A stretch of 32,654 nt of DNA, taken from assembly GCA_902628635.1 (NCBI GenBank), contig CACONQ010000007.1:1-32654 (forward strand), given 5' to 3'. Positions 24,044 to 26,526 of the stretch are shown here, in pieces. Under the pieces are notes generated by a model. It did not search any database. It saw nothing but the letters and a program-made list of their open reading frames with translations, and was not told the DNA's origin. How positions within the stretch are numbered: the first letter of the stretch is position 1; every line of letters begins with the position of its first letter. Source of the DNA: an uncultured Pelagibacteraceae bacterium (GTDB lineage: Bacteria > Pseudomonadota > Alphaproteobacteria > Pelagibacterales > Pelagibacteraceae). Made by a program: the position numbers and the translations under genes.

Positions 24044-24120
<77 letters not shown>

Positions 24121-24123
24121 TTA

Positions 24124-24318
24124 TTAGATTCTATTTTTAAGCTTATTTAGCTTTTTAACTCTTTTAATATTTTCTTGAAGTATTCTTTTCTTTTTCTCTG
24201 ATGGTTTTTCATAAGTATCTTTCAGTCTTATTATTTTAAAAAAACCATCTCTCTGGAGTTTTCTTTTTAAAACTCTGAGAGCCTGTTCAACATTATTATC
24301 TTTTACTTCTATTTTAAT
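24124..24318 (-). CDS. rpsU: 30S ribosomal protein S21
   Basis: S21 helps the small subunit pair with mRNA at initiation. The sequence IEVKDNNVEQALRVLKRKLQRDGFF, then YEKPSEKKKR and a basic tail, is clear S21. The open frame begins with TTG at 24330, but a strong ribosome-binding sequence GGAGG lies inside it at 24328-24324. Five bases later comes an in-frame ATT (24318). Starting there gives 64 residues with exactly the family's usual N-terminus (M-x-x-x-V-(R/K)-D-N-N-V). The TTG has no such sequence before it. The ATT start is therefore preferred, though unusual; if wrong, the gene is 24124-24330. It is followed three bases on by the initiator tRNA. Confidence 0.85.
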   Translation of the reverse strand: MKIEVKDNNVEQALRVLKRKLQRDGFFKIIRLKDTYEKPSEKKKRILQENIKRVKKLNKLKNRI

Positions 24319-24381
24319 AACTACCTCCAAAAAAAAGGTTTATTAACACTTTAAAAATTTTTTGTCTATAAAATTTATAAA

Positions 24382-24954
24382 TCAATCTTTTTCCCGCTTC
24401 TCTTTTTCTTTTTCTCTTTTCTCCCTTTTAATACGTCTTTCAGCTTTTTCTAAAGCCAAGACCAAATCTTTTTGAGAAAATAAGTTTATGGAAACTGGGT
24501 CTTTAGGATTTAAATTATTAAAGTTCCAATAACTTTTATTTCTTATAGATGTAACTGAATTTTTTGTTATGCCAACTAACTTTGCTATTTGTGAGTCCTT
24601 TAATTGTGAGTGATGTTTTAATAACCACAAAGCAGAATCTGGTTTATCTTGTCTTTTTGAAAGGGGAACATACTTTTTTATCTTATCTGTCTGACCTGAT
24701 ATCTCAATATGATTTATTTTTATTTCCAGAGGTCTATTTTCATCTTTGGAGGATAAATTAATTTCTTCTCGGGTTAATTGACCTGCCATTATCGGATTAT
24801 ATGGTTTAATTCCTTTGGCAACCTCTCCATCTGCAATACCTTGAACTTCAACTTCATGCAAATTACAAAAATTTGCAATTTGCTTAAAAGTTAATGTAGT
24901 GTTTTCAACTAGCCAAACAGCCGTAGCCATCGGCATTAAAAGTCCGTTCGTCAT
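24382..24954 (-). CDS. trcR: TrcR/DUF1013 family cell-cycle transcriptional regulator
   Basis: The 190-residue protein matches the alphaproteobacterial DUF1013 family, named TrcR in Caulobacter. Landmarks are LLMPMATAVWLVENTTLTFKQIANFC at the start, HEVEVQGIADGEVAKGI, YNPIMAGQLTREEI, and a second helix-turn-helix-like half, PDSALWLLKHHSQLKDSQIAKLVGITKNSVTSIRN. The tail is a dense Lys/Arg/Glu helix (residues 168-190). It presumably binds DNA or RNA polymerase; the mechanism is not shown here. Its ATG overlaps the rpmE stop by one base (TAATG), so it is translated with L31. Confidence 0.9.
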   Translation of the reverse strand: MTNGLLMPMATAVWLVENTTLTFKQIANFCNLHEVEVQGIADGEVAKGIKPYNPIMAGQLTREEINLSSKDENRPLEIKINHIEISGQTDKIKKYVPLSKRQDKPDSALWLLKHHSQLKDSQIAKLVGITKNSVTSIRNKSYWNFNNLNPKDPVSINLFSQKDLVLALEKAERRIKREKREKEKEKREKD

Positions 24955-25965: not shown

Positions 25966-26526
25966 TTAAATTTTTTTGACATATTCGAATGTTCTTGTAT
26001 CAATTAAGACTTCATCACCTATTTCTATAAATGGTGGAACCTGTATTTTGACTCCATTGTCTAAAGTTGCAGGCTTATAAGAGGACGAAACTGTTTGGCC
26101 CTTGAGTGCTGCGTCAGTCATTTGGATCTTACATGATACCTGATTAGGAAGCTGAACCATTATCGGATTATCATTATGAAAGCTTATAGTAACTTCTAAA
26201 TTTTCCTTAAGCATACTACCTTTCTCACCGACAATATTTTTTCTAATCTCAACTTGCTCAAATGATTTAGTATTTATAAAATAATAATTTCTTTCATCGT
26301 CATACGAATAATTAAATTTATTTTCCTCTACAGATGCTTTTTCTATAGTTTCACTAGATCTAAATCTTTCATTTAATTTTGTATTTTTATTTATACTTTT
26401 CATTTCTACCTGCGCAAATGCCCCACCTTTACCAGGTTTAACATGTTGGGTTTTTAAAACTTCCCATAAATCATTTTTATATTCTAAAAGCATACCAACT
26501 CTTATTTCATTAGCTGTAATTTTCAT
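25966..26526 (-). CDS. efp: Elongation factor P
   Basis: EF-P rescues ribosomes stalled at proline runs. The 186-residue protein has three beta-barrel domains: a KOW-like N-terminal domain with the tip loop VKPGKGGAF, where Lys33 is the residue that EpmA-type systems lysylate; a middle domain (ETIEKASVEENKFNYSYDDERNYYFI); and the C-terminal domain ending IQVPPFIEIGDEVLIDTRTFEYVKKI. Lysine instead of arginine at the tip implies the EpmA/EpmB route if modified; neither gene is in the window. The ATG overlaps the thiE stop by four bases (ATGA). Confidence 0.95.
   Translation of the reverse strand: MKITANEIRVGMLLEYKNDLWEVLKTQHVKPGKGGAFAQVEMKSINKNTKLNERFRSSETIEKASVEENKFNYSYDDERNYYFINTKSFEQVEIRKNIVGEKGSMLKENLEVTISFHNDNPIMVQLPNQVSCKIQMTDAALKGQTVSSSYKPATLDNGVKIQVPPFIEIGDEVLIDTRTFEYVKKI

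Follow-up and report, generated by a model that had tools for sequence, protein, structure and literature searches.

Evidence for an AUU initiation codon in the ribosomal protein S21 gene of SAR11 bacteria and its possible role in translational control

Initiation factor 3 (IF3) represses bacterial starts other than ATG, GTG, or TTG, and few such non-canonical starts have been characterized experimentally (PMC5472188). According to the same source, infC is autoregulated and the Streptomyces gene sigR, which begins with GTC, is another proven case; the sigR start is conserved, and a nearby upstream canonical codon is tempting but wrong (PMC5472188). In vitro, IF3 favours strong codon-anticodon pairs, and the addition of more IF3 lowers the yield of full-length product from an AUU codon read by a CAU anticodon (PMC10158994). 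A second described system concerns ribosomal protein bS21, the product of rpsU, which is a late addition to the 30S subunit and readily exchanged (PMC10931766). Flavobacterium ribosomes without bS21 translate rpsU, with its strong Shine-Dalgarno (SD) sequence, better than other ribosomes do; the autoregulation described for Flavobacterium johnsoniae works through the SD and a sequestered anti-SD, and the main text of that paper does not mention AUU (PMC9976891). A literature search that took in few subscription journals and no bioRxiv preprints returned no recognisable report of a non-canonical rpsU start in the Alphaproteobacteria.

Comparison of relatives suggests that rpsU of SAR11 belongs beside these genes. 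It resembles infC, as the original prediction had proposed: both genes belong to the initiation machinery and carry an AUU-class start, which for rpsU is conserved and was recognized by sequence comparison; however, the product of rpsU is a ribosomal protein rather than the factor that reads the codon, and an effect of IF3 on rpsU would be an extrapolation. With the infC/sigR class it shares both a start other than ATG, GTG, or TTG and the conservation of that start in relatives (ATA, ATC, or ATT, together ATH, in 130/131 loci of the family and 28/28 of the sister family). Like sigR, it lies outside infC and has a misleading canonical codon upstream, but codon and function differ, and the effect of IF3 is proven for sigR only (PMC5472188).

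The window, a stretch of 32,654 nt from an uncultured member of the Pelagibacteraceae, carries rpsU on the minus strand at 24124..24318, where the region reads TTTTTTTTGGAGGTAGTTATTAAAATAGAAGTAAAAGATAATAATGTT. From ATT to the TAA stop (24126-24124), the gene would encode a bS21 of 64 amino acids; this start was assigned by comparison, and the product matches both Pfam PF01165 (58.3 bits, cut-off 27) and NCBIfam TIGR00030 (53.3 bits, cut-off 28.95). The SD, GGAGGTA (24322..24328, minus strand), is followed by GTT and the putative start (24316..24318), so that the sequence is GGAGGTA-GTT-ATT and five bases, TAGTT, separate GGAGG (24328-24324) from ATT. The codons that follow are AAA ATA GAA GTA AAA GAT AAT AAT GTT. 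The longest reading frame is opened instead by TTG at 24330-24328 (minus strand), and GGAGG lies 3' of that codon.

Relatives were found with peptide patterns that exclude the start codon; among named records, Candidatus Pelagibacter ubique and Pelagibacteraceae came closest, which places the window in SAR11. The family was taken as the group f1, in which 118 of 147 genomes had an rpsU match and 50 loci were read besides the window's own, together with named records titled Pelagibacteraceae, Pelagibacterales, or Candidatus Pelagibacter; the 80 named loci, the best 80 of 434 relatives, lean to close kin, and their species may overlap with those of the other genomes. Starts were set by hand for eight loci in the whole survey (L185, L190, L219, L223, L229, L232, L241, and L244). 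Among the 131 family loci, the rpsU start is ATT in 128, ATC in one, and ATA in one, and ATG, GTG, and TTG never occur; the single exception is an off-register copy. GGAGG is present before the gene in 125 of the 131, and the gap between SD core and ATT is 5 nt in 101 loci, 6 nt in 14, 4 nt in seven, and 9 nt in seven, the core being missing in two. The alignment of relatives thus bears out the original prediction both in the ATT start and in its spacing of five bases from GGAGG. The off-register copy (L185, on contig C47 of G010, a genome with 8% contamination), retained in the count of 131, is a divergent second S21 with GGAGG and ATA-ATA and without a canonical start in range, and it probably comes from another organism.

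The sequence 5' of ATT is informative as well. An in-frame stop lies two to six codons before the start in 27 of the 131 family loci; it stands two codons before ATT in ten (TAG-GTT-ATT, TAG-TTT-ATT, or TAA-TTT-ATT) and three codons before it in two (TAA-GCA-AAT-ATT). Forty-six loci whose start is ATT lack any in-frame ATG, GTG, or TTG over the interval bounded by codon +8 and, on the 5' side, by the upstream stop, a distance of 40 codons, or the edge of the locus. Given these stops and the gaps of 4, 5, 6, or 9 nt, the interval between SD and ATT is noncoding. Three other codons were nevertheless considered as the start. TTG 24330 is the first canonical codon in the frame. However, the corresponding position, four codons 5' of ATT, has TTG in only 79 of the 131 family loci and is replaced in the other 52 by any of thirteen codons, stops included (AGG 17, CTG 9, and TAG 7 among them); an SD that lies 3' of TTG, together with the lack of conservation of this codon, rules the TTG frame out as the start. 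GTT 24321 is disfavoured, as the same codon is TTT, CTT, AAT, TAT, or ATT in other loci. ATA 24312-24310, two codons past ATT, is kept in 100 of 103 genomes, but its distance from the SD core is 11 nt in the window and greater in other loci, and a start there would drop residues that match the S21 N-terminus. Finally, chance constancy of an internal isoleucine codon is ruled out by the stops, the frameshifting spacers, and the tree described below. Initiation of rpsU at any of the three other codons is hardly tenable, and AUU is almost certainly the start of SAR11 rpsU.

In the sister family (f2), an rpsU match was present in 28 of 30 genomes, and all 28 loci were read. The assigned start is ATA in 27 and ATC in one, never ATG; it stands about eight bases past GGAGG or a variant of it and is followed by GTT, GTC, or GTA. 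No in-frame canonical codon is present in 27 of these loci, and the remaining one, L137, has only an ATG 13 codons upstream. Across the 159 loci of the two families, then, the assigned start is never ATG, GTG, or TTG. A sample of the class Alphaproteobacteria (89 loci in 88 genomes, none of them that of the window, with the duplicate L248 dropped and second copies in four genomes left out) is more mixed, with GTG in 41, ATG in 19, ATH in 15, TTG in ten, and CTG in four. Where Met is aligned with GTT, GTC, or GTA, the preceding codon is ATH (12) or NTG (15) in 27 of 27 loci; where Met is aligned with GTG, this holds in 2 of 33. This pattern argues that the ATH codon is the start in those class loci. 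Of the 15 ATH loci, six lack a canonical codon in range (L156, L190, L230, L234, L236, and L237), two have one downstream only (L194 and L216), and three have one 16-26 codons upstream (L162, L200, and L217); the other four, with a canonical codon 4-8 codons upstream, are less certain (L198, L201, L211, and L228). CTG and ATH starts were seen to recur through the class sample (L140-L169, L190-L249).

The avoidance of AUG appears to go with the form of the protein. For L27, used as a control gene, the start is ATG in all 30 loci read, out of 88 class-sample genomes with a match. The MPxxKV type of S21 N-terminus is the form found in Escherichia coli. In 26 further loci, read by eye at the level of the phylum, this other form (n = 15) starts with ATG in 14 and TTG in one, whereas the alphaproteobacterial form (n = 11, of which five are from the same phylum but not the same class) starts with GTG in ten and TTG in one. 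Avoidance of AUG is thus linked to the alphaproteobacterial form.

Within the family, the constancy of the start codon can be set against that of other codons and other genes. On a tree built from the 103 family rpsU loci, out of 130, in which trcR is present as well, codon 1 changes twice at its third base; among the other 51 codons the median is 15, and only one of them changes as little. Codons 2 and 3 are slow too, with 7 and 3 changes, and part of the constancy of codon 1 may therefore reflect a general constraint on the initiation region. Codon 30, which is Ile in most loci, is ATG in 12 of the 103, so mutation readily supplies ATG; codon 1 is never ATG. The neighbouring genes, in the family loci where they are present, start in the ordinary way: trcR, the upstream neighbour (24382..24954, minus strand), with ATG in 95/95, the next gene, g25181, with ATG in 92/92, the EF-P gene with ATG in 73/73, and IMPase with ATG in 72 and GTG in five of 77. 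The gene thiE was set aside as an additional local control, as its N-terminus did not align (a blind projection gave four ATG and nine ATA of 13, and these were not taken as ATA starts). It is strongly suggested that selection holds an AUU/AUC/AUA-class start and excludes AUG in SAR11 rpsU, and the AUU itself is quite probably kept by selection.

The start codon is joined to an unusual SD. Three of three SAR11 16S genes that were read (L404-L406) end in GGATTACCTCCTTTCT, with the anti-SD CCTCC intact; the usual 16S tail, GGATCACCTCC, has C where the SAR11 tail has T. GGAGGTA in the window pairs over seven bases with this SAR11 tail, and TA directly follows GGAGG in 88 of 130 family loci, which fits it as well. 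The background was taken from the complete genome G003, which belongs to the same genus, and each of 221 genes sampled there was given its best candidate start: the median SD duplex of these genes is -3.8 kcal/mol, and only two of them equal or exceed the -12.2 kcal/mol of the window's rpsU. When the choice of start was fixed, 11 of 186 genes in ten stretches of G003 fitted the SD consensus over at least 5 bases. In the family loci read, no GGAG was found in the SD window of trcR, g25181, the EF-P gene, or IMPase, and a three-base SD piece occurs in 20 trcR loci. Given the weak duplexes and few consensus SDs of the sampled G003 genes, and these neighbours without GGAG, SAR11 is SD-poor, and rpsU couples a strong SD with a very poor start codon. 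Over 130 family loci, the rpsU duplex has a median of -12.2 kcal/mol (range, -14.6 to -7.3), and 88 reach or pass the level of the strongest 1% in the G003 gene sample.

The SD of SAR11 rpsU may parallel the exceptional rpsU SD of F. johnsoniae, whose genome is SD-poor too, and one explanation would transfer the published Flavobacterium type of bS21 autoregulation (PMC9976891) to SAR11: in 30S subunits without bS21, the anti-SD would be exposed, allowing translation of the strong-SD rpsU mRNA, with AUU only adding to the dependence on the SD. The distance of the window's duplex from the G003 median speaks for it. However, the pairing of 7 bp is short of the 9-13 bp in Bacteroidota, whose duplexes fall below -13 kcal/mol by another program (PMC9976891), and other SAR11 genes with SDs of 5-6 nt exist; we regard this explanation as rather unlikely. 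The leader was considered too. TGNTA lies 20-27 nt 5' of GGRGG in 127 of the 129 family loci that have GGRGG. In the window, the putative extended -10-like promoter element, TGTTAATAA, is at 24340..24348 on the minus strand; with such an element in this position, the leader may be short. A structured operator, as expected of ribosomal protein autoregulation, was rejected: folds of positions -22 to +60 in 130 loci had a mean z of +0.22 against mononucleotide shuffles, with none below -2. Since no excess structure is found near the start, the simplest interpretation is that control runs through the start codon and the SD.

The infC genes of the same lineages were read by eye, in 30 loci of 40 matching family genomes and 30 of 92 in the class. 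In the family, infC starts with ATT in eight loci (genera g5 and g12), ATG in seven (g7 and g9), and GTG in 15; these GTG codons (L269 and 14 others, in the window's genus and several more) directly follow an in-frame stop, as TAAGTG. In the window's genus itself, GTG is found in 5/5 loci read. In the sister family, infC starts with ATA in 6/6 loci, and in the class sample ATA or ATC is apparent in 25/30, canonical alternatives not having been individually excluded. The most economical reading is that, in the window's genus, an IF3-sensitive start has been lost from infC and kept in rpsU. With GTG at infC, IF3 would not be held constant there by an AUU of its own.

How, then, might an AUU start serve rpsU? 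Most likely, although with no great confidence, it puts S21 under repression by IF3, with the exceptional SD as an offset. In this model, the pairing of a poor AUU with such an SD in an SD-poor genome would make initiation rely on SD pairing, with IF3 as the check. When IF3 and mature 30S subunits are plentiful, synthesis of S21 would be held down; when IF3-free or immature 30S subunits build up, it would rise. The rpsU start could thereby act as a homeostat, controlling a protein that is among the last to join the 30S subunit. The feedback step, in which 30S subunits that are immature or lack bS21 act on rpsU, is a guess, and more probably wrong than right. Several observations run against IF3 repression as the best explanation: infC of the window's genus begins with GTG, some family members have a weak rpsU SD (the upper end of the range given above), and GTG, the commonest rpsU start of the class sample, lies outside the class of codons repressed by IF3. 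Since GTG is not IF3-repressed, the avoidance of AUG across the class might serve simply to keep the level low. AUU might likewise do nothing more than fix a low translation rate or offset the strong SD, with no regulation by IF3 or the state of the 30S subunit; the mixture of GTG, TTG, and CTG with ATH in the class sample would fit a start that is weak rather than IF3-sensitive. However, AUG with a weak SD would suffice for a low rate, and SAR11 instead joins a rare codon to an exceptional SD, with no ATG, GTG, or TTG at the assigned start in either family. This alternative is therefore considered unlikely, though worth keeping in mind. If IF3 repression is correct, an AUU-class start for S21 across two SAR11 families, recurrent in the sampled Alphaproteobacteria, would open a second target, within the ribosome, to IF3 proofreading, and it makes feedback from ribosome composition testable. 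In addition, gene finders restricted to ATG, GTG, and TTG miss such starts, and an AUU start would correct the annotation of S21 wherever it has been placed at an upstream codon.

S21 is also carried by viruses. It was found in 57 viral contigs and in three cultured phages, HTVC008M, Mosig, and Melnitz-3, which are the three phage records read of eight. In these 60 genes, the nearest in-frame canonical codon is ATG in 38 and TTG in 22, and in every one it sits at the aligned start position or at most three codons before it. For HTVC008M and Mosig, the annotated gene begins at this codon; that of Melnitz-3 begins farther upstream. With ATG or TTG starts available to the viral genes, the S21 protein itself needs no AUU start. 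The contrast between AUU in the host and ordinary starts in the viral copies read points to a built-in brake on S21 synthesis and suggests that viruses avoid it. A broader proposal can be put forward as speculation, and we would not expect it to hold in full: SAR11 would have shifted the AUU switch from IF3 to S21, with infC of Pelagibacter losing its ATH start and rpsU retaining one beside an exceptional SD, 30S subunits lacking bS21 or IF3 would preferentially make bS21, the cell would sense incomplete 30S subunits at a start codon, and S21-carrying phages would escape through AUG or UUG. Among the marine viral S21 genes (L340-L399), many combine a TTG start with an extended SD, for example GGAGGTAAAATAA, and exceed the host gene in length by one to two codons.

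It had also been proposed that, with the initiator tRNA encoded next to rpsU, the AUU start would form a feedback loop on initiation; in such a loop, co-transcription would tie rpsU to the supply of initiator. In the window, a tRNA-Met(CAU) is encoded on the minus strand at 24044..24120, 3 bases past the rpsU stop, and shows a C1-A72 mismatch, which marks initiator tRNAs. The tRNA is found within 10 nt downstream of rpsU in 85 of the 131 family loci, at 11-100 nt in 16, and at 101-700 nt in 17. However, it was not found within the available sequence, up to 700 nt, in 11 family loci (2 further loci could not be checked) or near rpsU in 28/28 loci of the sister family, where the ATH start is still present. 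Adjacency of the tRNA is not part of the AUU-start trait; this portion of the original prediction is not supported, and a loop through the initiator tRNA is very improbable. Several translation genes do cluster here: the EF-P gene (25966-26526), encoded on the same, minus strand, precedes rpsU and the initiator tRNA by a short distance.
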